Shown piece by piece: positions 25,416 through 62,403 of a stretch of DNA of 64,000 nucleotides. The stretch covers positions 310,001-374,000 of the forward strand of contig NZ_JACHCL010000002.1 in assembly GCF_014200725.1 (NCBI RefSeq), written 5' to 3'. Each line of letters begins with the position of its first letter. Position 1 is the stretch's first letter. The position numbers and the translations under genes were made by a program. The notes beneath the pieces were generated by a model. The model had not been told where the DNA came from. It ran no database searches and was given only the letters and a program-made list of their open reading frames with translations. The DNA comes from Janthinobacterium silvisoli. Its GTDB lineage: Bacteria > Pseudomonadota > Gammaproteobacteria > Burkholderiales > Burkholderiaceae_D.

Positions 25416-25904
25416 GAGGTTTCCTGAAGAATGTGTAAGAAATGATGAACAATTACTTTGCAGTAATAGTCGAACACAATATTGCCACAATGGAATTACT
25501 ACATCAATAATATTCTTACTGTTGTTTTTCATCATCATCCGGCGCTGGATCTTGTCCGCCAGGCGCTGGTTCAGGATAGGGATATACGGCTTGACGCGAG
25601 CATTACGCACACATCGAGGTGATGAAACAAGGCGCAAGCCAGGGAGAAATGCGGGAGTCGCGCAGTGGCGCAGCGAAACGGGTTTCGCCGCCAGGAGCTA
25701 GCCATCTGCAGGCTGCTGCCTTGCCCGGTACCAGCGCTGGCGCCCGTTTGCGCCAGGTTCGCCAGGCTGGTCTCATAGCCGCTGGCCGGGTAGGCCTTGC
25801 CCGTGGCCACCATGGAGAAGGTCAATAGCGAGGTCTTGATGCGGTTGCTGCTACTGGCAGCCTGGACCAAGCGCCTAGTGCCTGTGTATCACAGGCAGGC
25901 GAGG
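25416..25904. other. Gene-poor stretch with dioxygenase fragment and small hairpins
   Basis: About 490 bases without an intact gene. It has an AT-rich part (25430-25540) upstream of the secreted-protein gene, a GC-rich part of unclear origin, a GCGAAAC/GTTTCGC hairpin near 25674-25689, the duplicated dioxygenase fragment (25697-25872) and a CCTGTG/CACAGG hairpin near 25880-25895. Confidence 0.5.
25697..25872 (-). pseudogene. Duplicated fragment of the dioxygenase-like gene
   Basis: About 175 bp nearly identical to 26509-26684 inside the dioxygenase-like gene downstream, in the same orientation; roughly ten substitutions, no gap seen. It covers the C-terminal Ser/Gly/Ala-rich part (QAASSSNRIKTSLLTF onward) but not the last 20 codons. 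It has no start and cannot make a working protein. Together with the intact gene it brackets the AT-rich gene 25905-26228. Confidence 0.85.
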
Positions 25905-26228
25905 TTACAATAGTCCGAAACTGACCAGCAGGCATATGCCAGGGACTTCATCATAATAAATAAACATGGTCACATTGCTAGTCTTTGCAGCAATCATGGT
26001 GGCATAGAAACGGTTCTTATCTGCTGAACTCATGTTGTCAGGAAAGCCAATAGCACCGTAGCTACACGATGATGACGTGTTCCATATTGCAACATTATTT
26101 CCCATATAGTTTTCCAGCTTCCAGCTAGGCTGACCAGACGCCGTCGAATAAAATATCTGCCGGCGTTCGGCATGCACCGGCCCACTGAAAAATATCAGGA
26201 AAATAACTGCTATTTTTATCAATTTCAT
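25905..26228 (-). CDS. Small secreted protein, AT-rich, unknown
   Basis: Predicted periplasmic or secreted protein of 107 aa: signal peptide MKLIKIAVIFLIFFSGPVHA, then a short mature chain with two Cys (SSSCSYGAIGF and PGICLLVSF) that may pair. The block RFYATMIAAKTSNVTMFIYYDE resembles small OB-fold-like secreted proteins, including distant subtilase-cytotoxin B-like ones, but this is a weak by-eye likeness. The start at 26228 is set by the signal peptide; an ATG 12 bases earlier is possible. The AT-rich composition differs sharply from the surrounding GC-rich DNA, and it sits between two copies of a dioxygenase fragment, so it was probably acquired. Confidence 0.6.
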   Translation of the reverse strand: MKLIKIAVIFLIFFSGPVHAERRQIFYSTASGQPSWKLENYMGNNVAIWNTSSSCSYGAIGFPDNMSSADKNRFYATMIAAKTSNVTMFIYYDEVPGICLLVSFGLL

Positions 26229-26448
26229 AAAACCTTGCATATTGCATCCTTATTTAATATGCCAGCAAACTGGAATATATTGATTTATGGAAATTATCAT
26301 ATTATAAGTATCTCAAATAATTGTCAATATATCCATACTTTAGCAAGCTATTTTTTGAATACTCCATGCAATGTAAACACTGTTTTCCTTCCTGCATAAA
26401 CGCCAGCATGCGATTGGCCGATATTGAAGAAAGCAGGGACAATATACC

Positions 26449-27285
26449 TTAGCCATTCACGGCAACAGCCAGCCTGGCCACATAACCATCGATGGCATTG
26501 CCCGTCAGGCTAGCCATCTGCAGGCTGCTGCCTTGCCCGGTACCAGCGCTCGCGCCCGTTTGCGCCAGGTTCGCCAGGCTGGTCTCATAGCCGCTGGCCG
26601 AGTAGGCCTTGCGCGCGGCCGCCATGGGGAAGGTCAATAGCGAGGTCTTGATGCGGTTGCTGCTACTGGCAGCCTGCACCAGGCTGGGGTAAATTTCCAA
26701 GTGCACATGCGGCAGGGTTCCTGGCTGGCAGCCAGGAAAGATGGTGGTGAAAGCCAGCATGCCGTTGCCGTCCGTTTCCTGCAGCCCCCGCAAATAATTC
26801 TGTCCTGCCAGGCCGCTGGAATATAGCGAATAGCGGCCATAGCGGTCGCAGTGCCATAGATAAATAGCGTAGCCGGCCAGGCTGGCACAGCCAGCCCCGG
26901 CATTGAGCAGCTGCAGCCGTATGCTCAACGGTACGCCCGCTGCAACCGCCGTGCCGCCATTGAAGCTGCTGCGGATATCGCTGCGCACGATGCCGGGCTG
27001 GTTCAGTACGTTGATGATGCTGCTGCCATAGGTATTGGTGCCATCGGCAGGATACGGCCCGGCCATTTCTTCCGGAATCACGGCGCAGGCGCCCGCCACG
27101 GGTTCGCTAGCGCCCATGGCTTCCAGCTCAGTAGCCGGCGCGGTGGCGTCACTCGCTCCGCCGCAACTGATCAGGGGCAAGGTCGCCGTGCCTACCAGCA
27201 GCCAGCGCAGCAGCCGGCGCCGTTCGGCCTGCCCCTGGTCCATCATTTCGAACTTGGATGCCAGGTCGACAGCAGGTGTATCCAT
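26449..27285 (-). CDS. Intradiol-dioxygenase-like lipoprotein, iron-ligand Tyr apparently lost
   Basis: Protein of 278 aa with an N-terminal lipobox-like LISC (after RRRLLRWLLVGTATLP) and an intradiol ring-cleavage dioxygenase core: AIYLWHCDRYGRYSLYSS, YLRGLQETDGNGMLAFTTIFPG and PHVHLEIY. In family members the segment reads PGxYPGRxxHIH, giving the Fe-ligand Tyr and a conserved Arg. Here it reads PGCQPGTLPHVH, so both seem replaced while the two His remain. It may be inactive or changed in activity. Start ATG 27285 is chosen because the lipoprotein signal follows. Its 3' part is duplicated at 25697-25872. Confidence 0.75.
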   Translation of the reverse strand: MDTPAVDLASKFEMMDQGQAERRRLLRWLLVGTATLPLISCGGASDATAPATELEAMGASEPVAGACAVIPEEMAGPYPADGTNTYGSSIINVLNQPGIVRSDIRSSFNGGTAVAAGVPLSIRLQLLNAGAGCASLAGYAIYLWHCDRYGRYSLYSSGLAGQNYLRGLQETDGNGMLAFTTIFPGCQPGTLPHVHLEIYPSLVQAASSSNRIKTSLLTFPMAAARKAYSASGYETSLANLAQTGASAGTGQGSSLQMASLTGNAIDGYVARLAVAVNG

Positions 27286-27401
27286 ACATATTCCATCAAA
27301 TGGGGCAAGCCTGCCAGCGCCGGACTGAGGCTGGCGCACAGGAACAGCAAGCGCCTGGTGGCCTCGCTGAAAGTGACGCTGACGGGCTTGCGCTCCATGG
27401 T

Positions 27402-28055
27402 TCAAGCCGTGGTGTTGACCAGGTTGCCGGCCGCTGGCAGGCTGGTGGCGCCGCTGGCGCCGCCCAGGCTACCCGACAAGGATTGCAGGAAACTGCCCAG
27501 CTTGGCATTACTGCCGTCGCTGCCGCCCCCCAGCGAAGTGAGCAGATTGGCGAAACTCGATTGCAAGTCGCTGACGCTGCTGTCGCTACCGTCGTTGCTG
27601 CTGGTGCTATCTGTGCTGGACGACAATTTCTGCATCAGGCTTTGCAAGTCCGACTCGATATGGCCGGGTCCGCCCCTGCCGCCGCCGTGGTGGCCGCCTT
27701 CGCCGGCGACTTTGCCCTGGCCTTCAGCCTGGCCGCCGCCACCCTGCGCGTGCAGGCTGCCCATCAGCTGGTGCAAAAAGGCGCCCAGCGCCTGGCCCGC
27801 GTCGCTGCCGCTGGCGGTACTGGTAGCGCTGGTGCCGCCGTCGGTGCTGCTGGCCGTATCGCTACTGGTATCGGGCACGCTCACGCCGATCGATGACAGG
27901 GCACTGGAAATGGCGTCCAGGAAGCCGTTGTCATCGGGCCTTTGCGGCGGCGTGCCGGCCGTGGCGCTGGTCGAAGCGGTGGCCGCGCTGCCGTCGAGGC
28001 GGCTGAAGGCGTTCAATTGGAGATTGCTGCTGGACGATAAAGCGTTGATGCTCAT
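27402..28055 (-). CDS. Ser/Gly-rich low-complexity protein
   Basis: Unrecognised 217-aa protein made mostly of Ser, Gly, Thr, Ala and Asp, with a central Gly/His block (GGHHGGGRGGPG) and Leu-spaced helices (LDAISSALSSIG, FLHQLMGSLHAQ, LQSLMQKLSS, FANLLTSLGG, GSFLQSLSGSL) repeated at intervals. There is no signal peptide. It lies 67 nt after the Spy-like gene on the same strand and may share its Cpx-type promoter. The repeated amphipathic helices hint at self-assembly. Similar low-complexity proteins occur in the family Oxalobacteraceae; no function known to me. Confidence 0.65.
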   Translation of the reverse strand: MSINALSSSSNLQLNAFSRLDGSAATASTSATAGTPPQRPDDNGFLDAISSALSSIGVSVPDTSSDTASSTDGGTSATSTASGSDAGQALGAFLHQLMGSLHAQGGGGQAEGQGKVAGEGGHHGGGRGGPGHIESDLQSLMQKLSSSTDSTSSNDGSDSSVSDLQSSFANLLTSLGGGSDGSNAKLGSFLQSLSGSLGGASGATSLPAAGNLVNTTA

Positions 28056-28087
28056 GTTTTACTCCCCTTTTTATAGTGTGTGATGGT

Positions 28088-28120
28088 TTATTGCACCTGC
28101 GATTTATTACACCTACGATT
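28088..28120. repeat. Short tandem direct repeat (16-bp period)
   Basis: A 17-base unit (TTATTGCACCTGCGATT, then TTATTACACCTACGATT) occurs twice with 2 mismatches between the Spy-like gene and the Ser/Gly-rich gene. It could be a binding site or chance slippage product. Confidence 0.5.
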
Positions 28121-28122
28121 TG

Positions 28123-28623: not shown

Positions 28624-28693
28624 GGGACTCTCCTCTTGTAGTTGATGAGCGTTGATTGTCCGGTGCTGGCGTGTAAAGCAACGTTAGTACTAA

Positions 28694-28708
28694 GTAAAAG
28701 CATGTAAA
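28694..28708. promoter_or_regulatory. CpxR box 1 (GTAAA-N5-GTAAA)
   Basis: Exact match to the CpxR consensus GTAAA-N5-GTAAA (spacer AGCAT), between the divergent Spy-like and CpxR-like genes. Confidence 0.8.
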
Positions 28709-29508: not shown

Positions 29509-29510
29509 GC

Positions 29511-37485: not shown

Positions 37486-39909
37486 CTATCGCCCATACCA
37501 GTAGCGCGGATGGCTGGCGCGGTAGCCGGTGACCGTGACCGTCTCGCCAAATTCGAGGGTCAACGCCCCCGCCTCGTCCGTCCGCAGCCGCGTAATCCCC
37601 AGCTCGCCATAACGCGCATAGATTTGCGCCTTCGGATGCTTGTAGCGGTTGCGGTGACCCACCTGGAATATCGCCAGGCTCGGGTGAACGGCATTCAAAA
37701 AGGCCGGCGTGGACGAGGTGCCGCTACCGTGATGGGGCGCCAGCAACACATCGGCCGCCAAGTCGCTCCCCAGGCGCGCGCGCAATTGCGCTTCCTGCGC
37801 CGCTTCGATATCGCCGGCCAGCAAGATCGCATGCTTGCCTGCCGTGATTTTCACCGTGCAGCTGCGGGCATTCGGTTTCAACGACATATCGTCGTGGCTG
37901 GCCGCCAGCGGGTGCAGCATCTCGAAGCGCACGCCTTCCCACTGCCAGCTTTGACCGGCCGCGCAATGCAGATAGGGCTTGCCCAGCTTGTGCTGCGCCA
38001 CGACGGCCGGATGGCCGCCAGCCAGGGACGAAGCCAGCCAGCCCACGGGAATATTTTCCAGCAGCGAGACGGCGCCACCCGCATGGTCGGCATCGCTATG
38101 CGAAATGATCAAGCCATCGAGCTTGGCTATGCCCCGCGCCCGCAGATACGGCACGATGACCCGGCTGGCGCCATCGGAATCCACGCCATACGCGGGCCCC
38201 GTGTCATACAGCAGGCGGTGGCCATGGGTTTCGACCAGCAAGGCCATGCCCTGCCCCACATCGAAGGCCGTGACCCATAACTGGCCCGGCGCCGGGCTGG
38301 CCGGCAAGGCCGTCATCAGGGGCAGCCAACTGAGCATCCCCAGCCAGCGATGCGGCCAGCCGCGCGGCGCCAGCAGCCACAAGGTGCCGAACAAGGCCCA
38401 GGCAAAACTCCACCACGGCGGCGCAGGGGCAGTCCAGACGGCAAACGGACCGATACTCAGCCACTCCAGCAGCTGCACCAGCAATTGCACGATAAAGTGC
38501 GCCAACAACAGCAGCCAGTCGGATAACGGCGCCGGCAGCAGGCTGGCAGACAGCGACAGGGGCGCCACCACCAGGCTGACGACGGGAATTGCCAGCGCAT
38601 TGGCGATCGGCGACACTAGCGACACTTGCGAGAACAGCAGCATGGTCAAGGGCACCAGCCCCACCGTCACCACATATTGCGTATGCGCGCCTAGCGCCAG
38701 CTCCGCCCGCAGCCGTTGCCAACGGCTGGCGTCCGGGGCCACCGGCGCCGATATGCGCCCCACGCTGGCATACAGTATCGTAGCGACCGCCCCGAACGAC
38801 AGCCAGAAGCCAGGCCACAGCACGGCCCAGGGATCCAGCAGCACCACCACGCCCAGCGCCAGGCACAGCACATGAAACACGCTGGTGATACGCCCCGTCC
38901 ACAAGGCGATGGCGACCACCATCAGCATATATAAAGTGCGCTGCGCCGGCACGCCAAAGCCGGCCAGCAGCACATACAGCAAGGCAGCGACGGCGCCCGC
39001 CAGCGCCGCCACTTTTTGCGCCGGCAACAGCAAGGGCAATTGCCATCCCGTAAAAAACGAGCGCCGCCACAAGGCGCCCGCCGCCAGCGCAACCAGCCCC
39101 GCAATCATGGTGATATGCAGCCCCGAAATGGAAATCAGATGGCTCACGCCCGTGCGGTTAAACACTTGCCAGTCCGACTGCGGTATCGCCCGCTGATCGC
39201 CCACTACCAGCGCCACGATCACACCTGCATAGGGCTTGCTCACCAGACTACGCTCTATGCGTGCGCGCAAGGCCGCACGGCAAGCCTCAACCACATTGCC
39301 GAAGCTGACCACAAAACCGTCCAGACGCACATTCGGCGTATCCGCCCTGGGCTGCGGCCGCACATAGCCAGTAGCTCGCACGCCCTGCTCCAGCAACCAC
39401 ACCTCATAATCAAAGCCCATCGGGTTCGCATTGCCATGCGGCCGCTGCAGCCGCACCGTCAATTGCCAGCGCTCCCCCGGCTGCACATCGCCCACCTCAT
39501 TCGTCACCTCATCGCGAAACCCCTTGTACCAGGACAAGGCAATCAACGGCGACACCTGCGCCCCCACCGCCTTCTCCACCGCAAAATTAAACCGCACACC
39601 CTGCTCGAAGTGATATGGCAGGCTGGCAATCGTGCCGGTGACCGTGATATCGCGGCCCTCGTCGGCCAAGGCCAACTGGGGAGCTAGCGCGAGTTGGGCT
39701 AGCCAGGCGGCCCAGAAAAAGCCAAGGATAACGCCGCCAGCGCATCCTGAAAGCAGACGCAGCAATGCATGCTGATGGCGCAGTACGTATCCGGCTAACA
39801 GGCAGACCAGGCAGGCGACTGCCAGCGTGGTTCCAGCATGGGCCGGCAGCGCCGCCTGCGTCTGCAGCCAGTAAGCACCAGCGGCGAAGCCGAGGATAAA
39901 GGTGGGCAT
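37486..39909 (-). CDS. comEC: ComEC/Rec2 DNA-uptake channel
   Basis: Inner-membrane channel for single-stranded DNA in natural transformation; 807 aa, normal length. Order: N-terminal membrane segments and DUF4131 domain (about 1-190), Competence domain with HLISISGLHITMIAGL and many membrane helices (about 215-510), then a metallo-beta-lactamase-like domain with FDVGQGMALLVETHGHRLLYDTG, HSDADHAGG, ILLAGDIE and LLAPHHGSGTSS (about 540-790). All parts are present, so the gene looks functional. Its first 240 codons and upstream region exist as a diverged second copy at 40752-41824. Confidence 0.95.
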   Translation of the reverse strand: MPTFILGFAAGAYWLQTQAALPAHAGTTLAVACLVCLLAGYVLRHQHALLRLLSGCAGGVILGFFWAAWLAQLALAPQLALADEGRDITVTGTIASLPYHFEQGVRFNFAVEKAVGAQVSPLIALSWYKGFRDEVTNEVGDVQPGERWQLTVRLQRPHGNANPMGFDYEVWLLEQGVRATGYVRPQPRADTPNVRLDGFVVSFGNVVEACRAALRARIERSLVSKPYAGVIVALVVGDQRAIPQSDWQVFNRTGVSHLISISGLHITMIAGLVALAAGALWRRSFFTGWQLPLLLPAQKVAALAGAVAALLYVLLAGFGVPAQRTLYMLMVVAIALWTGRITSVFHVLCLALGVVVLLDPWAVLWPGFWLSFGAVATILYASVGRISAPVAPDASRWQRLRAELALGAHTQYVVTVGLVPLTMLLFSQVSLVSPIANALAIPVVSLVVAPLSLSASLLPAPLSDWLLLLAHFIVQLLVQLLEWLSIGPFAVWTAPAPPWWSFAWALFGTLWLLAPRGWPHRWLGMLSWLPLMTALPASPAPGQLWVTAFDVGQGMALLVETHGHRLLYDTGPAYGVDSDGASRVIVPYLRARGIAKLDGLIISHSDADHAGGAVSLLENIPVGWLASSLAGGHPAVVAQHKLGKPYLHCAAGQSWQWEGVRFEMLHPLAASHDDMSLKPNARSCTVKITAGKHAILLAGDIEAAQEAQLRARLGSDLAADVLLAPHHGSGTSSTPAFLNAVHPSLAIFQVGHRNRYKHPKAQIYARYGELGITRLRTDEAGALTLEFGETVTVTGYRASHPRYWYGR

Positions 39910-40139
39910 GGCGGGTGAGATTCACGCGCTGAAATGCACCAGTATGGGTGGTGCATTTCAGGTATGCGCAGCTTGACAGGCAGCGTGTTTGATCGGGCGC
40001 AGCACGATGGCGGATATCGCACTTGAGCGATCAACGACGTGCCTGTCGCCTGCAAATTAACTTGCAGTCACGTTGAAGTGAAAAATCAAGAATTACGGCA
40101 GAGGTCGTGTCTGAATTGCAGAACTGACCCTGCCTTCGC
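39185..40139 (-). repeat. Direct-duplication unit A (comEC 5' part and upstream region)
   Basis: This stretch corresponds to 40752-41824 in the same order and orientation: the first 242 codons of comEC, the upstream GCGCTGAAAT block, a TTGATCGGGCGCAG block and the GAAGTGAAAAATCA block. The protein parts are about 93 percent identical by eye. Unit B has about 110 extra bases before the last block. Confidence 0.85.
39929..39961. promoter_or_regulatory. 13-bp perfect palindrome upstream of comEC
   Basis: CTGAAATGCACCA and TGGTGCATTTCAG flank a 7-nt loop, 20 bases before the comEC start codon. In the duplicate the left arm is kept but the right arm is lost. It could be an operator or an RNA hairpin in the comEC leader. 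Confidence 0.55.
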
Positions 40140-40163
40140 GCTAGACGGGACCTTAACCGCGCC

Positions 40164-40382
40164 TCATTGTGCCCGGAAGCGTCCGTGCCGATCCGTTGGC
40201 TTCCGATTGCGCTCGCGGTGAATGTTGATGGAATAGCCCTGATTTGTAGCCCACGCTATCGCCTGGGCCTGAGTATCGCACTCGTGCAATAACCGCTCTG
40301 TCCCCTCTTGCTCAACCGCGTGATGAATGCCTGGTTCCCAGTTGCTGGGATTTTTAACCTTAACAATATCAACCTTTGCCAT
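40164..40382 (-). CDS. Small DUF2188-like protein
   Basis: Protein of 72 aa with a DUF2188-like order: HAVEQEG strand, a helix with TQAQAIAWATNQG, then INIHRERN and a DRHGRFR end. No function is known for such proteins. It lies in the unique DNA between the two comEC copies and may be acquired. A good upstream ribosome site is not obvious; moderate confidence that it is expressed. Confidence 0.5.
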   Translation of the reverse strand: MAKVDIVKVKNPSNWEPGIHHAVEQEGTERLLHECDTQAQAIAWATNQGYSINIHRERNRKPTDRHGRFRAQ

Positions 40383-40751
40383 AGAGCCTCGCTGTTTTGG
40401 AATATGAAGTTAGAGCGCGTTAGGTACATCACCTGCAATGCATCCTGTCGCGCATTATTTTACCGGTGGCGTAAAATTTCGTACCCCCGGCTGACGCCCA
40501 GCTTATCAGGTTGTGTTAGCGAAAAAATCACGAATTCTCACCCGCGAGGACCACGAACATTCTTCGGGTACCCAGACTTTGGTACAGCCGTTGTGCGCTC
40601 GTGCTGTGGGACGCCTGCAAAGCTTACGGTGCCGAAGCGCGGGTCGTAGGCCTAGCTGCGCAATAATGAGCGCCAGGGAAAAACTAATTGTCGTAGATCG
40701 AAAGATCGCCGGCTGAGCCAGGGAAGAACTTAATTGTCTTTCACCAGAGCA
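40383..40751. other. Spacer between small gene and comEC duplicate
   Basis: About 370 bases with no convincing gene on either strand. Composition is mixed. It carries the junction to the truncated comEC copy at about 40751. I saw no inverted terminal repeats or transposase remains. Confidence 0.5.
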
Positions 40752-41476
40752 ATCGCCCGCTGGTCCCCCACCACCAGCGCCACGATCACGCCCGCATAGG
40801 GCTGGCCCTGCAAACTGCGCTCGATGCGCGTGCGCACAGCAGCCCGGCACGCTTCCACAATGTTAGCGAAACCCGGCACGAAACCGGTCAAGCGTACATT
40901 TGGCGTATCGGCCCGAGGCTGCGGCCGCACATAGCCCGTCGCGCGCACGCCCTGCTCCAGCAACCACACCTCATAATCAAAGCCCATGGGATTCGCATTG
41001 CCGTGAGAACGCTGCAGCCGCACCGTCAACTGCCAACGCTCCCCCGGCTGCACATCGCCCACCTCATTCGTCACCTCATCGCGAAACCCCTTGTACCAGG
41101 ACAGCGCAATCAGAGGCGGCACCTGCGCCCCCACCGCCTTTTCCACCGCAAAATTAAAGCGCACGCCCTGCTCGAAGTGATATGGCAGGCTGGCAATGGT
41201 GCCGGTGACAGTGATATCACGACCTTCGTCGACCAAGGCCAGCTGGGGAGCTAGCGCGAGTTGGGCTAGCCAGGCGGCCCAGAAGAAGCCAAGGATGACG
41301 CCACCGATGCATCCTGAAAGCAGGCGCAGCAATGCACGCTGGTGGCGCAGTGCGTATCCGGCTAACAGGCAGGCCAGGCAGGCGACCGCCAGCGTGGTTC
41401 CAGCATGGGCAGGCAGCGCCGCCTGCGTCTGCAGCCAGAAAGCGCCAACGGCAAAGCCGAGGATAAAGGTGGGCAT
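40730..41476 (-). pseudogene. Truncated comEC copy (N-terminal 243 codons)
   Basis: Opens with the same MPTFILGFA start as comEC and follows it for about 242 residues with roughly 17 substitutions, then leaves homology after VALVVGDQRAI and stops seven codons later. It has the first membrane segments and DUF4131 domain only, no channel and no nuclease-like domain. Differences cluster towards the break (residues 196-224), so it looks like another allele rather than a fresh duplication. The frame is open, so a short membrane protein could still be made. Confidence 0.9.
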
Positions 41477-41824
41477 GGCGGGTGGGAGTCACGCGCTGAA
41501 ATACACCAGTATGGGCGACGGAGGCCAGGCATGCGCATCTTTATAAATAGCGCTTTTGATCGGGCGCAGTACGGTGGCGGATATCGTACTTGCGCGGTCC
41601 GAGGAAGGTAGAACAGTTTTGCCACTCAGACACGATCTGCCATGCATATCAATTCTTGGCTTCACTGTGTTCTGGAAGCCGTTTACTGGCTTGCTACTCT
41701 TACGCACTAGCAGTGTCCCTGCATGCAGGTCACCAGCAAAATAGGGTGTCGGCCTGTTTGAAGTGAAAAATCAGGAATTACGGCGGATGTCGTGTCTGAA
41801 TGGCAGAACTGGCCCTGCCTTCGC
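40752..41824 (-). repeat. Direct-duplication unit B (truncated comEC and upstream region)
   Basis: Partner of 39185-40139; see that entry. It directly precedes the AT-rich HamA/HamB operon. Confidence 0.85.
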
Positions 41825-42013
41825 AAGAACAACTTCAGCTGCGTGATTATTGGATAGATTATGATCAAGTGTATCTGCCATGATAGCAATGATGTCACAT
41901 TGATTTCCGAACATCAAGAAATCCGTTACCATTCGTGTGAATTGGCTCCTTAACTGGTAGTTTACTTACAGAAGACTACTTATGGGTTTGATCGTTTCAG
42001 CGTAGAGAATAAT
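41477..42013. other. Spacer between comEC duplicate and hamA
   Basis: About 537 bases without a convincing gene. The first 350 match the comEC upstream region (unit B); from about 41825 the sequence turns AT-rich and leads to hamA, so the border of the acquired DNA is near 41824. A weak GAGA site precedes hamA. Confidence 0.55.
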
Positions 42014-42832
42014 ATGGCCGTAAAAGATATCCGACACGAATCTAGTGATGATTCGAGCGTTTCACTTTGTATTATTGATGATTTGTCCGATGAGCTTAAG
42101 GGAATAATAAAATTAGAGCTTTCTAAAGTTTGTCATGGGCCCGCCAAGGCAGAAGAAGGTAGGAAGTCGTATGCTTACGAACCTACAATACGTGAATTTG
42201 TTAAGCGATACAAAGATAAGTCACCAACAACTAAGTTGGGAATGATCGGCGAACTTCTTTGCCATATTCTTTTATTTAGTTTCAACAATGAATTAAAGGC
42301 AGCAAGTCCATTTTTTAATATGGAAGAAGGAAGTATTAAAAAAGGCTTCGACTTGATGATTATAAACTCTACCGATAATTCATTCTGGATAACAGAAGTT
42401 AAATCTGGTGAGCTTGGAGAAAAAGATAAACAACAAAAAATACGCGGCCTTATCGATCTAGCAAAGTCTGATTTAATCGAGAGATTAACATCAAAGAACG
42501 CAACAATTTGGTACTCCGCCATAAATAATATTGATATATCTTTATCTGGAAACATGCCAGAAAAGAAAATACTCAAAGATCTTTTAGAAGAATTTATTGA
42601 GGGAAAAGACGAAATTGTCACGAAAGATTCAAAATCTATGAATGTTTTCCTTGTGCCGATTCTTTTTGAAAATACTCTCAACTCCATCGACTTACAAACA
42701 ATAAAAGACAAGCATTCAAAATTGATTTCCGCTGGAGATTTTTCACGATGCCTTATTTTTGCAATTCAAAAGTCGACAATAATTAAAGTAGAAAAATTCT
42801 TAATTGAAGAAGCGGAAGGAGCTAGCAAATGA
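42014..42832 (+). CDS. hamA: HamA-like nuclease of a Hachiman defence system (DUF1837)
   Basis: Effector of a Hachiman-type anti-phage system: in the family HamA is a PD-(D/E)XK-type DNase restrained by the HamB helicase. This 272-aa protein shows the expected core: GMIGELLCHILLF (Glu80), KKGFDLMII (Asp113) and FWITEVKSGE (Glu128, Lys130), i.e. E...D...ExK. The C-terminal helices end LIEEAEGASK. Its stop overlaps the hamB start (ATGA), so the two are translated together. The DNA is clearly AT-rich compared with both flanks, as expected for a transferred defence module. The related AbpA of AbpAB is a possible alternative name. Confidence 0.85.
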   Translation: MAVKDIRHESSDDSSVSLCIIDDLSDELKGIIKLELSKVCHGPAKAEEGRKSYAYEPTIREFVKRYKDKSPTTKLGMIGELLCHILLFSFNNELKAASPFFNMEEGSIKKGFDLMIINSTDNSFWITEVKSGELGEKDKQQKIRGLIDLAKSDLIERLTSKNATIWYSAINNIDISLSGNMPEKKILKDLLEEFIEGKDEIVTKDSKSMNVFLVPILFENTLNSIDLQTIKDKHSKLISAGDFSRCLIFAIQKSTIIKVEKFLIEEAEGASK

Positions 42833-45288
42833 GTGAAACATTAACATTGAGAATTATTCGCTCATCAAAAATATCTGAACTTTTAAAAAAGCTATACTTC
42901 TCAGAAAATTCGGACAAACAGTCATCCTCTGTCCTCAAAATTGCTCTTTTATTTTTAAATAGCGAAAAAGATGTTGTAAAAGAATTCGGTTATAGACTTC
43001 TATTGAAATATGCGAACAAGACAGGAAATTTTGTTCCACTTTATGATGTGGCCGCATTGTTAGGTTTCACACCGATTATGTCACTTTTGAAACAACAGTC
43101 ATTATTGCCTGAAAATAATGGCTTTCTTGACACTCTCATGTCAGCTTATAGAGAAAATTTTAAAGTAGGCGATATCTATCAAACAGAAAACCAGAGTGCT
43201 TTATTTAAGCAGTTTTCAGATTCTGTGGGTGAAAGCATAGCCGTTGTGGCACCTACTTCCTATGGAAAGTCGCAGCTAATCGAGCAATCTATCGCGACCA
43301 ATCAGAAATTAAATATTGCAATCCTAGTTCCTTCGAAAGCACTAATTTCGCAAACGAGGCGTAGAGTTTTAGCGCAGATTGACTCTCAGCAAGTACGTCA
43401 AGTTATCGTGCATCACGATATGGCATTTGACATACAGCAGCCCTTGATTGCTGTGGTAACGCAAGAGCGACTGCTTCGACTGCTTCAGAAAAATCCCACC
43501 CTTAGCTTTGACCTTCTCTTTGTGGATGAGGCTCATAACTTACTAAGCGATGACAAACGTGCCAGATTACTAGCAAGCGTGATAATTATTGCAAGAATAA
43601 GAAACAATAATTTAGCGGTAAAATACCTTACTCCATTTCTTATTTCTTCCGACAGCTTAAAATTATCTGCGAAAACGCATGATATCCGCGAAATTAAAAT
43701 TTTAGAAAAATTAAAAACAGAAGATTACTATACCTGCGATATTCATTCTGAAAAAAAGCTCAAATTATATGACCAATTTATGAATGATTTTTATGACACT
43801 GGAGACAGACAATATCTGAGTGAAATAGAACTTCTTCTAGAGAAGAAAAAAAATAAAAATATTGTTTACCTGAACAAACCCAAAAGTATAGAAATTTTTG
43901 CTGAACAGATTTCGAACTCATTTGAAAAAAACATTACCTCAGAACTTAATCGTGTCTGCGATGAAATATCGGAATATGTTCATCCCGATTATCGTATTTT
44001 GGGCTGCCTACGGCGTGGGGTTGCATACCATCATGGTGCAGTCCCTGACGTTGTTCGAGCATATATTGAAACTTCGTTTAGGAAAGATCCTTCGGTTAAA
44101 TGGATTATCACAAACTCTACACTTTTAGAAGGAGTAAACATTCCTGCAGAGACATTATTTGTCTTGGATGCACGTAAAGGCAGAGGTAGCCTAACCACTC
44201 CACAGTTTAGAAATCTAGTCGGCAGGGTAAATCGTTTCAGTGAGATATTTGATTTGGAAAATGGAGATCCTAAACTTCTTCTTCCATCAATATATTTAAT
44301 TAATTGCAATTATTCCCGCGCTAATTCCAATTATGAAAAATATTTGACCAAAGTGGCAAAAATTGATGGAAAAATAGATGACGTGATTTCCAATCCGCTG
44401 TTGAGTGGAGCAGCCGACAGCGCTGAAAATGCCAAGAAAAAGGCAGAAGACTTTGCCTTTATTGAAAATATTGAACCAAATGGCAATCTACGGCCAGATC
44501 CAACATTCGCAACTACAGAGGTTGGTAGGCTTTGCCATATTCATAGCGTTTTTGAATTCGATATTTTTAAGCACGAAAAAGAGATGGAAGCTCAAGTCAA
44601 GATTTTCACAGATAAAAAAATTCAGATTGGCGACGCGACAATTTTAATGCAATTAATTTCCGAGTTATTTGTCTCAAAGATTGACGATGAAGACGCACAA
44701 AAAAATAAAGCCGTTAATTTACTTAGGTTGCGAAATACAGCGGCACAAGCTTTTTATGCTATGTTCTTTGACTGGAGAATTAATCAAGTCAATTATAGCC
44801 GAATGATTGGCAATTTCATTAAGTATTGGAAAAAAATAGTCGAGAATGAGAAAGATACTATCGTATTTGTTGGCCGCTGGGGAACAATTCCTAGGGAAGG
44901 GTTCATCGAAAACTATGTAGACTTAAAAACTTTATCTGATTATGAAATGATTAATCTAGCTATAGTGAGAATCAAAGAAGAACAAGATTTCTTGGATAAT
45001 ACACTTGTGAAATTCTTAGAAATTTTGAATGATCTACAGTTAATTGAAGAACAATTGTATAACAAAGTTAAATATGGCACTAACGATGCCGATCAAATAG
45101 CGCTAATTAAAAATGGTTTCTCTCATATTGCTGCAAACGTGCTTTTAGCAAAATATCGTCAGTTTTTTCAAATTGACGAGGAAGGGAAAGTCAGCATACT
45201 TGCTGGAATTAGAAATTCTTTTCAAGCCAGACAGGAGAAAGAATTAATTACATTTGAAGTCGAGTGGTCGGGGCTGATAGGAAAGTAA
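42829..45288 (+). CDS. hamB: HamB-like SF2 helicase of a Hachiman defence system
   Basis: Superfamily-2 (Ski2-like) DNA helicase/translocase of 819 aa. Motifs: Walker A APTSYGKS (141-148), motif Ia VPSKALISQ, DEAH box FVDEAHNL (233-236), YHHGAVP (400-406), TLLEGVNIPA (431-440) and the arginine-finger motif FRNLVGRVNR (460-469). The C-terminal 350 residues are helical without a known domain. In Hachiman the helicase senses damaged or phage DNA and frees HamA. Same AT-rich composition as hamA. A 9-bp inverted repeat lies 20 bases after the stop. Confidence 0.88.
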   Translation: MSETLTLRIIRSSKISELLKKLYFSENSDKQSSSVLKIALLFLNSEKDVVKEFGYRLLLKYANKTGNFVPLYDVAALLGFTPIMSLLKQQSLLPENNGFLDTLMSAYRENFKVGDIYQTENQSALFKQFSDSVGESIAVVAPTSYGKSQLIEQSIATNQKLNIAILVPSKALISQTRRRVLAQIDSQQVRQVIVHHDMAFDIQQPLIAVVTQERLLRLLQKNPTLSFDLLFVDEAHNLLSDDKRARLLASVIIIARIRNNNLAVKYLTPFLISSDSLKLSAKTHDIREIKILEKLKTEDYYTCDIHSEKKLKLYDQFMNDFYDTGDRQYLSEIELLLEKKKNKNIVYLNKPKSIEIFAEQISNSFEKNITSELNRVCDEISEYVHPDYRILGCLRRGVAYHHGAVPDVVRAYIETSFRKDPSVKWIITNSTLLEGVNIPAETLFVLDARKGRGSLTTPQFRNLVGRVNRFSEIFDLENGDPKLLLPSIYLINCNYSRANSNYEKYLTKVAKIDGKIDDVISNPLLSGAADSAENAKKKAEDFAFIENIEPNGNLRPDPTFATTEVGRLCHIHSVFEFDIFKHEKEMEAQVKIFTDKKIQIGDATILMQLISELFVSKIDDEDAQKNKAVNLLRLRNTAAQAFYAMFFDWRINQVNYSRMIGNFIKYWKKIVENEKDTIVFVGRWGTIPREGFIENYVDLKTLSDYEMINLAIVRIKEEQDFLDNTLVKFLEILNDLQLIEEQLYNKVKYGTNDADQIALIKNGFSHIAANVLLAKYRQFFQIDEEGKVSILAGIRNSFQARQEKELITFEVEWSGLIGK

Positions 45289-45310: not shown

Positions 45311-45346
45311 CACAATGTTCACAAAATGCAATTAGAAAACATTGTG
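45311..45346. terminator. Possible hairpin after hamB
   Basis: CACAATGTT and AACATTGTG form a 9-bp stem with an 18-nt loop. No T-run follows, so it may be Rho-dependent, protective or chance. Confidence 0.4.
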
Positions 45347-54602: not shown

Positions 54603-55340
54603 TCAGTATTGGTAAGGCTGCAGCCCTTCATCGGTCAGGCGCAGCACGCGGTCGCAGCGCCTGGCCAGCTCGATATCGTGCGTGACAATCACAAAGGCCG
54701 TGCCCAGGTTGCGCGACAGTTCCAGCATCAAATCGAAAATCTGTTCAGCTGTGGCGTGATCGAGGTTGCCGGTCGGTTCATCGGCCAGCACGCAGGCTGG
54801 CTGCGTCACCAGGGCGCGGGCCAAGGCCACGCGCTGGCGTTCGCCGCCCGACAATTCGCCAGGCGTATGGGTTACGCGCTTGGCCAGGTTAACACGGGCC
54901 AGAATCTGCTGCGCCAGTTCGGTGGCCGGCGCGCGCTTCATGCGCCGTATCATCAAAGGCATGGCGACGTTGTCCAGCGCCGAGAACTCGGGCAGCAGAT
55001 GGTGGAACTGGTAGACGAACCCCAGGGAGGCGTTGCGCAAGTCGCCGCGCGCCTTTTCACTGAGGCTGGCGAAGTCTTTACCCAGCAAGCTTACCTTGCC
55101 GGTGGTGGGCGTATCGAGCCCGCCCAGCAAATGCAGCAGAGTCGATTTACCGGAGCCGGAGGCGCCGACGATAGCCACGCGCTCGCCGCGGTGTACATCG
55201 ATGTCGATACCGGCCAGCACTTGCACCTTGTAGCTGCCTTGCGTAAAAGTCTTGCCCAGGCCACGGCAGGACAGGACGGGAGCGCCGTTATCGGCAGGTT
55301 TATTCAGATCGGTCATGGTAGAAGTCAATGGATTATTCAT
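54603..55340 (-). CDS. lolD: Lipoprotein-release ABC ATPase LolD
   Basis: ATPase of the Lol transporter that frees lipoproteins from the inner membrane to LolA. 245 aa; Walker [10 protein letters not shown] (about 57-65), Q-loop [12 protein letters not shown] (the LolD-typical sequence), signature LSGGERQR, Walker [12 protein letters not shown], then the H-loop ...VTHD. It overlaps the permease gene 55333-56598 by 8 bases, showing coupled expression. Confidence 0.95.
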
Positions 55341-56598
55341 AGCGCAGGGCTTCCGCAGGTTTGACGCGCGCCGCCCACCAGCTTGGATACAGGGTCGCCA
55401 AGAAGGCGAGGATCACGGCCAGCACGCCGATCTTGCTCACATCGGGCCAGCGCAGGTCGGATGGCACGGTGCTGATGAAATAAATATCCTTGGACAGGAA
55501 CTGTATGCCCAGTACATGTTCGATAAACGGCACGATCACGTCGATATTGAGCGCGATCAGCACGCCGCCGGCCACGCCAAGAATGGTGCCCAGGATGCCC
55601 ACCAGCGCGCCCTGGATCACGAAGATCTTCATGATGGAACCGGGCGATGCGCCCAGGGTGCGCAAGATGGCGATATCGGCCTGCTTGTCGGTCACCGTCA
55701 TGACCAGGGTCGACACCAGGTTGAACGCGGCCACTGCGATGATCAGGGTCAGGATGATGAACATCATGCGCTTTTCCGTCTGCACGGCGGCAAACCAGTT
55801 GGCGTTCAGCTTGGACCAGTCGCGCAGCCACAGGTCGCCCGGCATGCTCTTTTTCAGCTCGGCCGCCACTTGCGGCGCGCGGTTCATGTCCGCCAGGCGC
55901 AGACGCAGGCCCGATGGCGCATCGATGCGCAGCAGCCGTTCGCCATCCTTGATATTGATGAAAGCCAGGCCCGCATCGAATTCATTGTGGCCGGCCTGGA
56001 AAATGCCGCTGACGGTAAAGGTGCGCATGCGCGGCAGTACGCCGGCCGGCGTGACCTGGCCCTGGGCCAGCATCAAGGTGACTTTTTCACCGAGGTTCAC
56101 GCGCAGCGCGCGCGCCAGCTCGATGCCCAGCACGATATTGTAGGTGCCCGGCTGCAGCGCCTTGAAACTGCCGATGCGCGTCTGGCCTGCCACGTCCGAT
56201 ACATTCGGCTCTTCTTCCGGCAAGATGCCGCGCACGATGGCCGGGCGCAGCGCATCGTCGCGCAGTAGCATGCCCTGTGTTTCCACGAATGGCGCCGCGC
56301 CCTTCACTTCCGGGTTCTTGAACGCCTGCGCCGCTTCGGCGCGCCAGTCCGGCATGCTGCCGCTGTTATCGAACACTTCCACGTGAGCCAGCACGGACAG
56401 CATGCGGTCCGTGACTTCCTTCTGGAAGCCGTTCATGACAGACAAGACGACGATCAGCGCCGCCACACCCAGGCCGATGCCGGCCATGGAAATGAGCGAG
56501 ATGAAGGAGATAAAACTGTTGCGGCCACTGCGCTTGCCCGCCCGCGTGTAGCGCAGGCCAACCAGCCATTCAAAAGGCAGATTCTTTAAAATACTCAT
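55333..56598 (-). CDS. lolC: LolC/LolE-type lipoprotein-release permease (copy 1)
   Basis: Inner-membrane permease of 421 aa. It opens with [20 protein letters not shown], then a first membrane helix, an extended periplasmic domain (about 50-270), and three C-terminal helices including [24 protein letters not shown], ending [14 protein letters not shown]. It partners LolD and overlaps it. A second, very similar permease lies just upstream; such tandem pairs could act as LolC and LolE or be redundant. Which is which cannot be told. Confidence 0.9.
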
Positions 56599-56628
56599 TG
56601 TTCCGGCGATTATTGTTAGTTCTCAAAT

Positions 56629-56655
56629 GGGGTCAGACCCGCCGGGTCTGACCCC
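56629..56655. repeat. REP-like palindrome GGGGTCAGACCC
   Basis: A 12-bp perfect hairpin (GGGGTCAGACCC, 3-nt loop, GGGTCTGACCCC) between the two permease genes. The same core returns at 60943-61001. It looks like a bacterial REP element. Confidence 0.7.
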
Positions 56656-56690
56656 GGCAGTAAATAAGCAAACGAAGCAAACCAAGCCAA

Positions 56691-57968
56691 CTATTCGTAA
56701 CGCAGCGCTTCAGCCGGTTTCACCCTGGCCGCACGCCAGCTCGGGTAGATCGTCGCCACCAGTGCCAGGGCAAAGGCGATCAGGCCGATCTGCGTCACAT
56801 CCATCCAGTGCAGGTCCGAGGGCACGGTGCTGATCTGGTAGATCTCTTTCGAGATGAAGTGCAGGCCAAACAGGCTTTCGATAAAGGGCACGATCACGCC
56901 CACGTTCAGCGCCAGCAGCACGCCGCCGAACACGCCCAGCGCACTGCCCAGCAAGCCCACCAGGGCTCCCTGTATCATGAAGATCTTCATGATGGAAAAT
57001 GGCGAAGCGCCCAGGGTACGCAGGATGGCGATATCGGCCTGCTTGTCGGTAACCGACATCACCAAGGTGGACACCAGGTTGAACGCGGCCACGGCAATGA
57101 TCATGCTGAGGATAATGAACATCATGTTCTTCTGGCTTTGCACCAGCGCATACCAGCTGGCAGCGGCGCGCGACCAGTCGCGCATCCACAGTTCACCGGG
57201 CATCGACGCCTTCAATTCACGCGCTACCCTTGGCGCCTGGTTCATATCGTGCAGACGCAGACGCAGGCCAGACGGGCCATTCAACTGCAGCAGCTGCTCG
57301 GCGTCCTGCATGTTCACAAAGGCCAGGCTGCCATCGAGTTCATTGTGGCCCGCCTCGAAGATGCCCGAGACTTTCAAGGGACGCATGCGCGGCATCACCA
57401 GGCTATTCGGTGCATCGCCCGCCTTCGGCTCGCGTTCCAGCATCAGGGTGACGTTCTGGCCCACTTGCACGCCCAGCGCCTTGGCCAGGTCGATGCCCAG
57501 CACCACATTGTAGGAACCCGGTGTCAAGTCCTTGAAATCGCCCTGCTTCATCTGGCTGGCCACGCTCGATACGGTCGCTTCCTGCTGCGGCAGCACGCCG
57601 CGCACCACGGACGGGCGCATGGTTTCGTCATTGAGCAGCATGCCCTGCGTTTCCACGAACGGCGCGGCAGCCTTGACTTGCGGGTTGGCGTAGGCGGCAC
57701 GTTCCTGCGCCTGCCAGTTCGGCATGGACCCGCTGGTGTCGAACACTTCGACGTGGGCCAGTACCGACATCAAACGGTCGGTGACTTCCTTCTGGAAGCC
57801 GTTCATGACGGACAACACGACGATCAGGGCGGCCACACCCAGGCCGATACCGGCCACGGAGATGAGGGAGATGAAGGAAATGAAGCTATTGCGGCCGCTG
57901 CGTTTCCCGGCGCGCGTATAGCGCACGCCGATCTGCCACTCGTAAGGAAATTTTCTGATGATGCTCAT
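56691..57968 (-). CDS. LolC/LolE-type lipoprotein-release permease (copy 2)
   Basis: Permease of 425 aa, co-linear with copy 1 and nearly identical in the first 75 and last 120 residues, less so in the periplasmic domain. Same [20 protein letters not shown] start, [17 protein letters not shown] and [15 protein letters not shown] end. ATG 57968 keeps the family N-terminus; the upstream in-frame stretch is not family-like. The tandem arrangement upstream of lolC-lolD suggests duplication and divergence. It is separated from copy 1 by a REP-like palindrome. Confidence 0.9.
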   Translation of the reverse strand: MSIIRKFPYEWQIGVRYTRAGKRSGRNSFISFISLISVAGIGLGVAALIVVLSVMNGFQKEVTDRLMSVLAHVEVFDTSGSMPNWQAQERAAYANPQVKAAAPFVETQGMLLNDETMRPSVVRGVLPQQEATVSSVASQMKQGDFKDLTPGSYNVVLGIDLAKALGVQVGQNVTLMLEREPKAGDAPNSLVMPRMRPLKVSGIFEAGHNELDGSLAFVNMQDAEQLLQLNGPSGLRLRLHDMNQAPRVARELKASMPGELWMRDWSRAAASWYALVQSQKNMMFIILSMIIAVAAFNLVSTLVMSVTDKQADIAILRTLGASPFSIMKIFMIQGALVGLLGSALGVFGGVLLALNVGVIVPFIESLFGLHFISKEIYQISTVPSDLHWMDVTQIGLIAFALALVATIYPSWRAARVKPAEALRYE

Positions 57969-60878: not shown

Positions 60879-60942
60879 TGAAAGACTAAATCTGCGGCAA
60901 TAACGTTGCATTGATGCTATTTCCACCCTAAAAGCCAGTACT

Positions 60943-61001
60943 GGGGTCAGTCTGATCGAAATGTTCCCCACCGGGGAACATTTCCCCACCGGGTCTGACC
61001 C
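60943..61001. repeat. REP-like cluster before fosA
   Basis: GGGGTCAG and CTGACCC flank two nested hairpins: ATGTTCCCC/GGGGAACAT (9 bp, ACC loop) and a TTCCCCACCGGG block occurring twice. Shares the GGGGTCAG core with 56629-56655. Confidence 0.65.
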
Positions 61002-61051
61002 GGCCTTACTGTAACGTTCCAGGTCATGCAAATTCATAAAATTTAATGTCC

Positions 61052-61471
61052 ATGCTCACTGGCTTGAACCACCTCACCCTGGCTGTGCGCGACCTGGACC
61101 GTAGCCTCACCTTTTACCGCCAGACACTAGGCCTGCGCCTGCATGCGCGCTGGGACCGCGGTGCGTATCTGTCGGCTGGCGATTTATGGCTGTGCCTGAC
61201 GCTCGATAAACAGGCAGACGGCGCGCCACTCGCCAGCACTGGCTATAGCCACACGGCGTTTTCCATCGCCGCCGCTGATTTCGCTGCATTTGCTGCCAAA
61301 CTACGCAAGGCTGGCGTACCCGAATGGAACCTTAACCGCAGCGAAGGCGATTCCCTGTATTTTCTTGATCCGGACGGCCACCAGCTGGAAGCACATGTGG
61401 GTGGCCTGGCAACGCGGCTGGCGGCTTGCCGGGTGACACCCTACGATGGCATGGTGTTTTTTGACGAGTGA
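61052..61471 (+). CDS. fosA: Fosfomycin glutathione transferase FosA
   Basis: Manganese-dependent enzyme that adds glutathione to fosfomycin and so gives resistance. 139 aa from ATG 61052 (ATG 61046 adds two). The sequence follows Pseudomonas/enterobacterial FosA closely: [56 protein letters not shown] and [12 protein letters not shown]. Metal ligands His7, His67 and Glu113 are all present, as are Thr9 and the K/S-binding NRSEGDS loop. A degraded copy of the 3' end lies at 62341-62403. Confidence 0.95.
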
Positions 61472-61530
61472 CAATATCGTAACCGCAGATGAATTCTCAT
61501 CAAAAACTCCAGAAGGAGTATTGCAATCAA

Positions 61531-61854
61531 TTATGGTATTTTTGAAAATCTCTGCGCCATGATCTTGCCATCATTCCCGATCATGATGTTTAGATAATAA
61601 ACAATATCCATTTCTACTTTCCCATAACGTACGAATCTTACATTAAACTCGTGACGACTTAAGATCGAGGCAATATTTGCCAATGATAGCTCTCCCCTGA
61701 TGAAATATGCGTTGAATTCCTTGAAGTTCTCAGCGCTAAATTCATAATCCCTCTTATTGCCAACCAAATCAATAAATTTCTTCTTTCTTTCATATTCCTT
61801 AAAGAATTCAAGAATATTTTTAAATTCATCGTAAGAAATACCCCTCACCGGCAC
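61531..61854 (-). CDS. Small AT-rich protein, unknown
   Basis: Unrecognised 107-aa protein, starting at GTG 61854 with a 10-base overlap of the upstream gene. Sequence is rich in Lys, Phe, Tyr, Asn: FKEYERKKKFIDLVGNK, FKEFNAYFIRGELSLANI and SRHEFNVRFVRYGKVE. No signal peptide. Its AT-rich composition matches its partner and differs sharply from fosA and the Xre/RES pair on either side. The two may be a toxin/immunity or accessory pair, but nothing proves it. Confidence 0.5.
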   Translation of the reverse strand: MPVRGISYDEFKNILEFFKEYERKKKFIDLVGNKRDYEFSAENFKEFNAYFIRGELSLANIASILSRHEFNVRFVRYGKVEMDIVYYLNIMIGNDGKIMAQRFSKIP

Positions 61855-62240
61855 ATAGCTGCTGTAATTTTTTCACAATAGTCACTTTTTGACAGCGAGA
61901 ACAACTGATGAATTTCATCCTCATTGTTTTTAGAATCATCTTTAAAAAATGACTGATAAGAATCTCCCTTGATGACACCAGCATCAATATTTCTGACAAA
62001 ACAAATGTCTTTTGATGTCATGTATGGTGCGGAATAAACATAATACCTCGACTCTTCGTCATTGCGGCACAACTGCACACTGCTGGATTTATATTTTTCA
62101 AGCAGAGTATTGACTGATTCATTATTGGAATTTTCATCAAAAAATATAGTGCAACGTCCACCAACAAGCTGGCTTGCCTCGATAGAACAGAAAAAACAAT
62201 AAAACATAAAAAATAATGCAATCTTTAACTTGATAATCAT
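61845..62240 (-). CDS. Small secreted AT-rich protein, unknown
   Basis: Predicted exported protein of 131 aa: Lys-rich start and hydrophobic core (IIKLKIALFFMFYCFFC), probably cleaved near SIEA. The mature part has Cys residues in GGRCTIFF, VQLCRND, KDICFVR, SDYCEKI and AAMCR, suggesting disulfides. ATG 62240 has an AGGCGG ribosome site, which settles the start. It precedes the 107-aa gene with overlap. Origin foreign by base composition; function unknown. Confidence 0.55.
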   Translation of the reverse strand: MIIKLKIALFFMFYCFFCSIEASQLVGGRCTIFFDENSNNESVNTLLEKYKSSSVQLCRNDEESRYYVYSAPYMTSKDICFVRNIDAGVIKGDSYQSFFKDDSKNNEDEIHQLFSLSKSDYCEKITAAMCR

Positions 62241-62340
62241 TAATCCGCCTTTTATTAATTTTATTTTAAAATTATCAATTGAATATATCAGATCAGCATC
62301 ACCATCACCTATGGGGGGCCTATCTTTTAGCTGTAGGCCC

Positions 62341-62403
62341 ATGACGCGGCTCACCGCTTGCCGGACCGCGCCCTAAGCTGACATGGGTTTCTTTGATGAG
62401 TGA
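62341..62403 (+). pseudogene. Remnant of a fosA 3' end
   Basis: Reading ACG CGG CTC ACC GCT TGC CGG gives TRLTACR, then TAP, a TAA stop, ADMGFFDE and TGA. It aligns with the FosA end [21 protein letters not shown] (split here), sharing most codons; the Tyr codon is a stop. After it the flanking sequence GAGTGACAA is also shared. It was once the end of a second fosA copy, or the original end separated from its gene by an insertion. Confidence 0.8.

Follow-up and report, generated by a model that had tools for sequence, protein, structure and literature searches.

How did adenine- and thymine-rich (AT-rich) genes come to lie beside truncated second copies of the genes that they adjoin? This question is raised by a 64,000-nucleotide stretch of Janthinobacterium silvisoli DNA (NCBI RefSeq assembly GCF_014200725.1, contig NZ_JACHCL010000002.1, positions 310,001 to 374,000; hereafter the window), which is part of contig C2 of a 5.9-Mb genome labelled G000. 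Three AT-rich stretches each adjoin a truncated direct repeat of a neighbouring gene, the anchor: an intradiol dioxygenase-like gene at site (a), the DNA-uptake gene comEC at site (b) and a glyoxalase-superfamily gene at site (c). Partial-copy pairs were located by self-BLAST of the window, and all three lie where a preliminary description of this DNA had placed them. The pattern is real and well delimited, and three such copies exceed chance. Our preferred reading, to which we assign a probability of roughly 0.45, is that the repeats are scars of DNA imported from congeners, joined homologously on one side and non-homologously on the other. For comparison with the window, the same region was fetched from 29 of 39 congeners; the genus set consists of 40 genomes and the family set of 294, the own genome being included in both, and single genomes are referred to by labels such as G027.

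Truncated direct repeats at three sites

The features concerned are given below with their strand (bp, base pairs; aa, amino acids; GC, guanine plus cytosine content; ORF, open reading frame; E, expectation value).

24417..25637, minus: gene past the copy at (a), 406 aa, 47% GC (only a sub-threshold Pfam hit, E 0.096; a 373-aa form has none at E 0.01)
25697..25872, minus: partial dioxygenase-like copy, nucleotides 722-897 of 957, both ends broken (self-BLAST)
25905..26240, minus: AT-rich gene between the copies at (a), 111 aa, predicted by eye from its N-terminus to be secreted, 42.6% GC, no Pfam match
26449..27405, minus: full anchor gene of (a), intradiol dioxygenase-like, 318 aa (Pfam Dioxygenase_C below cut-off, E 1.1e-4; G027 orthologue 84% identical)
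37486..39909, minus: full comEC, anchor gene of (b), 807 aa (Pfam Competence, DUF4131, Lactamase_B)
39910..40139, minus: comEC upstream region, terminating in a dispersed motif at 40105-40126 (self-BLAST, motif search)
40140..40751, no strand: segment X, which separates comEC from its copy and contains a 72-aa DUF2188-like ORF at 40164-40382, minus (DUF2188 below cut-off)
40752..41476, minus: truncated second comEC 5' end (ORF 40730-41476, 248 aa)
41477..41824, minus: upstream region of the comEC copy, with a hairpin element at about 41610-41818 that has inverted motif ends (inverted repeat search, fold)
42014..42832, plus: HamA-like gene of a Hachiman-type operon, 34% GC (PADLOC HamA1, E 2e-5, a weak match)
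42829..45288, plus: HamB-like helicase gene, 36% GC (PADLOC HamB1, E 3.5e-73; Pfam DEAD)
61046..61471, plus: full anchor gene of (c), glyoxalase superfamily, putatively called fosA in the preliminary description (Pfam Glyoxalase, E 1.4e-18)
61531..61854, minus: AT-rich cargo gene at (c), 107 aa, no homologue found
61845..62354, minus: AT-rich orphan cargo gene at (c), likely start near 62240, predicted by eye to be secreted, found in 1 of 294 family genomes (its own)
62344..62406, plus: decayed second 3' end of the anchor gene of (c), continuing into the next locus, with an in-frame stop (self-BLAST)

Each copy lies in direct orientation to the full gene and has its broken end on the side of that gene. 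At (b), at (c) and in an independent comEC case in the relative G013, described further on, the copy extends beyond the end of the gene into the anchor's own flank. At (a), positions 25697-25872 match 26509-26684 over 176 bp at 95.5% identity (E 3e-76). A 175-bp copy of the 3' part had been described here; the copy exists, but it is an internal piece, from which the last 60 bp of the gene are absent. Over the copied part, the full gene is 75.4% and the copy 74.3% identical to G027. At (b), the main block (40752-41599 versus 39185-40032) measures 848 bp with 87.3% identity, and a second block (41758-41824 versus 40073-40139) 67 bp with 92.5%. A second comEC 5' end with its upstream region is thus present as first described, whereas the identity of about 93% given for it is wrong for the main block. 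The segment between the two comEC copies has 53% GC, and the AT-rich Hachiman genes (35.5%) are located past the copy. A HamA-like (DUF1837) gene precedes a HamB-like one as in a Hachiman operon, and the two reading frames share 4 bp; HamA was found in 1 of 294 family genomes, its own.

With regard to (c), positions 61412-61474 match 62344-62406 over 63 bp at 76.2% identity (E 4.5e-5), which is weak taken alone. The degraded 3' end reported there is nevertheless backed by empty sites in G027, G013 and G001: the right-hand copy is collinear into the next locus, exactly at the site of the gene's single 3' end in these three relatives. In the window, the AT-rich pair lies directly 3' of the intact gene and the right-hand remnant leads into the upstream region of the next gene. 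The glyoxalase-like gene stands less than 300 bp before that next gene in 5 of 28 relatives (at 77-86 bp in G027, G013 and G001), and in 19 of the 28 the position is occupied by a GC-rich gene encoding 858-934 aa. Site (c) is empty in G027, G013 and G001 and filled in the window, and no loss of recipient DNA is visible relative to G027. An insert flanked by direct repeats of its target, which is single-copy in the empty relatives, has the arrangement of a long target duplication. Fresh long target duplications should leave near-identical repeats, and none of the three window pairs is near-identical (95.5%, 87.3% and 76.2%). In G027 the glyoxalase-like gene lacks about 200 bp internally and looks broken (G027:C16:49390-49620).

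To put these pairs in proportion, near direct pairs were listed over 850 kb of the home contig (n = 109) and kept if 300 bp or more separated the repeats and the DNA between them had less than 54% GC, a cut chosen after the list was seen. Seven pairs passed, namely the three window sites, a tRNA-Arg repeat and three members of a single repeat family at 647-648 kb. The chance that three random sites in 850 kb fall within 36.7 kb is 0.0055, or 0.021 with a possible fourth case, in a test that is post hoc. In the testable part of the window (16.6-64.0 kb, in which we grouped eight raw accessory stretches into five loci), a partial copy is present at 3 of 3 AT-rich accessory loci versus 0 of 2 GC-normal ones (Fisher p 0.10). 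The possible fourth case is a 102-bp direct repeat of 86% identity around two genes of 56% GC (G000 C2:272966-273067 and 275958-276058); the middle of this pair has 54.5% GC, just over the cut.

Three simple explanations were rejected. A scar does not stand beside every accessory gene of the genus: in 1.36 Mb of the same region from the 29 relatives, only the partial-copy pairs of G027 and G013 were kept, the remaining pairs being judged, by GC content and matching positions rather than by annotation one by one, to be intragenic repeats or tandem paralogues. An assembly artefact is contradicted by the divergence between the copies, by the comEC copy in the separate G027 assembly and by the fact that G013 is a single-contig genome. 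An integrase-type island finds neither an integrase among the scanned cargo proteins nor an exact att-like core, and the repeats at (c) have no long exact core. Elsewhere in the window, two tandem copies of about 1.26 kb with 75% identity (55334-57947) are an old paralogue pair, since a like pair is listed in the regions of 11 of the 29 relatives.

The neighbourhood of (a) consists in the window of an acyltransferase gene, two further genes, the partial copy and the small AT-rich gene. In 23 of 28 relatives two other genes (about 580-660 and 480 aa) precede the dioxygenase-like gene, and in G027 the place is taken by about 600 bp containing another small ORF. The 111-aa cargo gene occurs in 3 of 294 family genomes, own included, and its product has 15 matches in a large protein set, again own included, of which the named ones come from Janthinobacterium lividum and Duganella. 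Homologues in G007 (L217:1489-2992, L219:1505-3043) stand with other genes for proteins of 106-122 aa, and the one on L219 lies near a fragment labelled SpvB-like from sequence likeness. The homologues may be immunity-type proteins.

The comEC copies and the alleles they carry

A comEC DNA match is present in 38 of the 40 genus genomes, own included. For (b), none of the relatives compared is insert-free with its flanks kept; the comEC copy of G013 has insert-free counterparts. In G013, comEC is followed by a gene that we take to be barstar-like and then by a second comEC 5' end, which together with its upstream region covers 405 bp at 91.6% identity. Next come a small AT-rich gene, two large genes with Rhs/SpvB domains and a methyltransferase-like gene, the last labelled by eye. 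In three of seven relatives compared (G018, G039 and G036), the barstar-like gene leads into the methyltransferase region within about 70-80 bp, without the copy or the Rhs genes; the methyltransferase gene of G036 aligns in parts only, and in G039 and G036 another gene sits between comEC and the barstar-like gene. Because these three lack the copy and the Rhs genes, the G013 insert looks like one block, made up of comEC end, upstream region and cargo, that was placed between the barstar-like and methyltransferase genes. About 72 bp of the G018 arrangement have no match in G013. Microhomology of 3-10 bp was looked for at the illegitimate junction: at the G013 junction, the G013 comEC and the G018 sequence that precedes the barstar-like gene have a 4-bp CCCT in common, which is too short to count. 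In G013 the truncated comEC frame and the beginning of the barstar-like gene also have 7 bases in common (L111:59-897), and this overlap could place the barstar-like gene under the comEC promoter.

The substitution patterns bear on whether the comEC copies are imported alleles or decayed duplicates. Between comEC and its copy in the window, the nonsynonymous rate (dN) is 0.045 and the synonymous rate (dS) 0.419, a ratio of 0.11, compared with 0.10 between the full comEC genes of the window and G027 and 0.17 for the gene and copy of G027 itself. The 723 nucleotides of the truncated copy contain no stop or indel in either genome. Of 84 single-site differences in the window pair, 23 change an amino acid, while in 500 simulations of neutral change the number averaged 60.2 and never fell below 45. 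In the G013 pair the protein is altered by 10 of the 25 differences, compared with 17.7 on average under neutrality (P 0.001). G018, used as outgroup, assigns 20 of the 25 to one side: the copy accounts for 17 (10 silent and 7 protein-altering) and the native gene for 3, of which 2 are silent. The silent changes, 10 versus 2, are unequally distributed (p 0.039). Judged by these patterns, the comEC copies look like alleles that stayed functional while diverging in another lineage.

Proposed import of congener DNA weighed against its rivals

If the repeats are scars of import, the incoming fragment, from a related strain, would have included an anchor gene end, the flank native to that anchor and the cargo next to it. 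On its far side this fragment would have paired with the recipient chromosome, and its near side, inside the donor's anchor copy, would have been joined illegitimately beside whatever adjoins the recipient's intact gene. The recipient would in this way retain its full gene and gain the donor's gene end together with what follows it. At comEC, the defence genes were probably swapped later between the flank of the copy and the next gene, a step that is proposed because G027 has another defence system there. The earlier suggestion of a partial allele left by one homologous and one illegitimate crossover draws support from the direct-repeat geometry, from the flank continuity in (b), (c) and G013 and from the working-allele pattern in (b) and G013, but it has to contend with the deletions that the process generally causes. 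Uptake genes (comEC and one of the dprA family) are present in the genome, a weak point in favour, as the dprA family is found in 11 of 14 control genomes including Escherichia coli. Papers are cited here by PMC number for those parts of them that were available; in one, which describes the Janthinobacterium HH01 genome, the gene content is taken by the authors to mean that this strain is probably able to take up DNA (PMC3566124). The uptake route, the order of events and the same origin for (a) and (c) we infer.

Several observations count against import. One-sided recombination generally deletes recipient DNA (PMC3240628). The copy at (a) is broken at both ends, unlike the one-sided geometry of (b), (c) and G013, and it gives no signal of an imported working allele, 5 of its 8 differences altering the protein against a neutral mean of 5.8; polarised by G027, four of the eight fall on the copy and two on the gene, two being ambiguous. 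The copy at (c) is too decayed to show such a signature. Second comEC 5' ends near the gene are rare: of the 38 genus genomes in which comEC has a match, three (G000, G027 and G013) have one, and the draft genome G028 has one more, ambiguous fragment at a contig end. A wider count over the 294 family genomes, with second matches in some of them, is left out of account.

Further difficulties arise from G027, which aligns collinearly with the window over comEC, segment X and the comEC copy. Past the copy it has a HerA/DUF4297 pair in place of the Hachiman operon, and the genomes are similar again from window position 45314. Since the same copy borders a different defence system there, the comEC copy is older than at least one of the two cargos (Hachiman or HerA/DUF4297) and need not be the footprint of the Hachiman insertion. 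The comparison of relatives with and without cargo, proposed as a check in the preliminary description, thus yielded empty sites at (c) and the insert-free G018 for the G013 case, but at comEC a relative that has the copy with other cargo. Segment X, which was found in 2 of 40 genus genomes (own and G027), is 99.0% identical between the two, whereas the 725-bp comEC ends flanking it are 86.9% and 87.6% identical, and no single-block import explains these steps at its edges. The 99%-identity stretch spans 40101-40760 and has sharp edges. Over the 725 bp of comEC in the window and G027 there are 18 crossed sites, at which the window gene matches the G027 copy and the window copy the G027 gene, together with 14 concerted sites and 1 orthologous site, a distribution that fits gene conversion. 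The crossed alleles suggest recombination between the copies; 16 of the 18 crossed sites lie within 39243-39324 versus 40810-40891, and 71 further concerted sites beyond the gene are read as alignment slip. Gene conversion from the intact gene could also be the cause of the low dN/dS of the copies. Finally, the cargo edge at comEC is marked by a 22-bp motif (40105-40126, 41790-41811 and, inverted, 41614-41635).

One mechanism for all three sites, as originally suggested, is not shown. The three loci do not have identical junctions, because among them only (b) has a transposase-linked repeat at its cargo edge.

The closest rival, which we regard as unlikely, is a single crossover of a circularised donor fragment containing part of the anchor and the cargo, leaving the cargo between a full and a truncated copy. 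A precedent exists in an E. coli test, where partial anchor-gene duplications were detected by polymerase chain reaction in 56 of 60 clones (14 of them sequenced, 109-950 bp) and ascribed by the authors to a single crossover of a circular molecule, the 4 remaining clones being ascribed to one-sided events (PMC3240628). Repeats of 176 and 405 bp fall inside that size range and those of 63 and about 1070 bp outside it. A circle predicts a truncated copy that continues into native flank, as found at (c), and the crossed comEC alleles fit an exchange of this kind. A recent import of X on a circle should, however, have carried the 99% identity into the repeats, which is not seen. Moreover, in G018, G039 and G036 the barstar-like gene, the would-be cargo of the circle, precedes the methyltransferase region without a comEC copy, and in G013 it is the copy together with the Rhs block that appears to have been added. 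At (c) the circle equals one-sided import in merit, while at G013 one-sided import fits better.

It is distinctly unlikely that tandem duplication within each lineage, followed by partial loss and later insertion or replacement of cargo, produced the repeats, in which case the copies would be older landmarks unrelated to the arrival of the cargo. Such a history would account for the comEC copy common to G000 and G027 with different cargo, and for the copy at (a) being 95.5% identical to the resident gene when both are about 75% identical to G027. Truncated comEC copies should decay under it, yet the ratios of 0.11 and 0.17 and the uninterrupted 723 nucleotides indicate otherwise, as does the excess of silent changes on the G013 copy; gene conversion could weaken both objections.

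A speculative extension, for which we see only a slender chance, is that partial copies serve as reusable docking arms: the truncated comEC end would pair with congener DNA, host recombination would swap defence systems between species with a DNA-uptake gene as the address, and segment X would be a module caught moving.

The slimmest chance of all falls to a mobile element moving the cargo, with the palindromic repeat at comEC marking the ends of transposed defence cargo. No transposase, integrase or terminal repeats had been noticed at the three sites, and insertion sequence (IS) or integrase boundaries at the cargo edges had been named as what would speak against the crossover model. No transposase or integrase domain is indeed present in those cargo proteins that were scanned, but the edge of (b) carries the 22-bp motif of a hairpin element, a repeat linked to a transposase. 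Terminal inverted repeats are absent at (c), and (a) has only two pairs, both inside the repeats themselves. At (b), the motif copies 41614-41635 and 41790-41811 are inverted repeats of 91% identity that together form the hairpin element (fold z -3.9 for 41600-41830). Allowing up to two mismatches, the motif occurs 9 times in G000 and 21 times in G027 and is present in 13 of 40 genus genomes, as against 0 for a reversed control. Copies flank a Y1_Tnp (PF01797) gene in G027 (L272:1509-2544), and a palindromic repeat linked to a Y1 transposase gene is what characterises elements of the repetitive extragenic palindromic (REP) type with a REP-associated tyrosine transposase (RAYT). The transposase is presumably of the RAYT type, IS200-like.

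The association of this motif with defence genes was assessed on nine proteins picked by eye, seven encoded close to other motif copies and two by the comEC cargo of G027, most motif neighbourhoods lying outside the scan. Six matched PADLOC defence models (KwaB, HerA, DUF4297, DzbA, DzbB and NDT_II-A) and three matched none. One motif copy is located beside the DzbA/B-like genes in G027. In G000, a KwaB-type (Kiwa) gene (L034:1904-2824) lies between two inverted motif copies about 3.3 kb apart (L034:1501, L033:1512; G000 C2:1247696-1250979). Transposition as the carrier is disfavoured by the three picks without a defence match and by the absence of any motif copy, up to six mismatches being allowed, from (a), (c), the right-hand border of the Hachiman cargo and the region fetched from G013. 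Searched for as dispersed repeats, the junction sequences of (a) and (c) gave nothing convincing in the 850-kb home contig or the relatives' regions, apart from one 25-bp match in G033 at chance level.

Related processes and biological meaning

We regard the pattern as a variant of a process already known, not as a new process. In Helicobacter pylori, restriction-modification genes were reportedly found inserted with a long target duplication by Nobusato et al. in 2000. The mechanism of that insertion is described as unexplained (PMC1643837, citing Nobusato et al. 2000). Defence-type genes inserted with a long target duplication are common to that case and ours, whereas our repeats are diverged by 4.5-24% and the comEC repeat is found in two species with different cargo. 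Homology-facilitated illegitimate recombination (HFIR), described in Streptococcus pneumoniae, Acinetobacter baylyi and Pseudomonas stutzeri, has one homologous and one non-homologous junction and needs no mobility genes; foreign DNA in the experiments averaged about 1 kb, and recipient DNA was generally deleted, in contrast to the truncated anchor copy kept here (PMC3240628). In the type VI secretion system (T6SS) orphan immunity arrays of Vibrio cholerae, the addition of a new module next to a conserved anchor moves the older gene outward without its loss, once with the effector 3' end, and the authors propose a process akin to HFIR (PMC5361080). The anchors in the window are different ones, namely a dioxygenase-like gene, comEC and a glyoxalase-like gene, and a predicted antiphage system is among the cargo. 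A conserved anchor at which cargo is exchanged is also known from the vgrG islands of Pseudomonas aeruginosa, where the exchange is attributed to HFIR and homologous recombination; the main breakpoint there is at the vgrG 3' end, and the available part of that paper mentions no truncated second copy (PMC11751169). Our literature search returned no paper linking a REP-associated tyrosine transposase with a defense system and none on a defense island with flanking genes and partial duplication; we do not claim the pattern as unpublished.

As seen here, defence genes and small AT-rich genes can sit at the edges of housekeeping genes without visible mobility genes, and a truncated anchor allele beside the cargo is a readable trace of gene arrival. 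Should the pattern hold at strain level, genomes could be searched by a simple rule for cargo brought in by recombination and for the donors of this cargo, and one-sided recombination and transposition could be told apart as carriers of defence systems. If true, the one-sided route would let antiviral genes spread without mobility machinery of their own.

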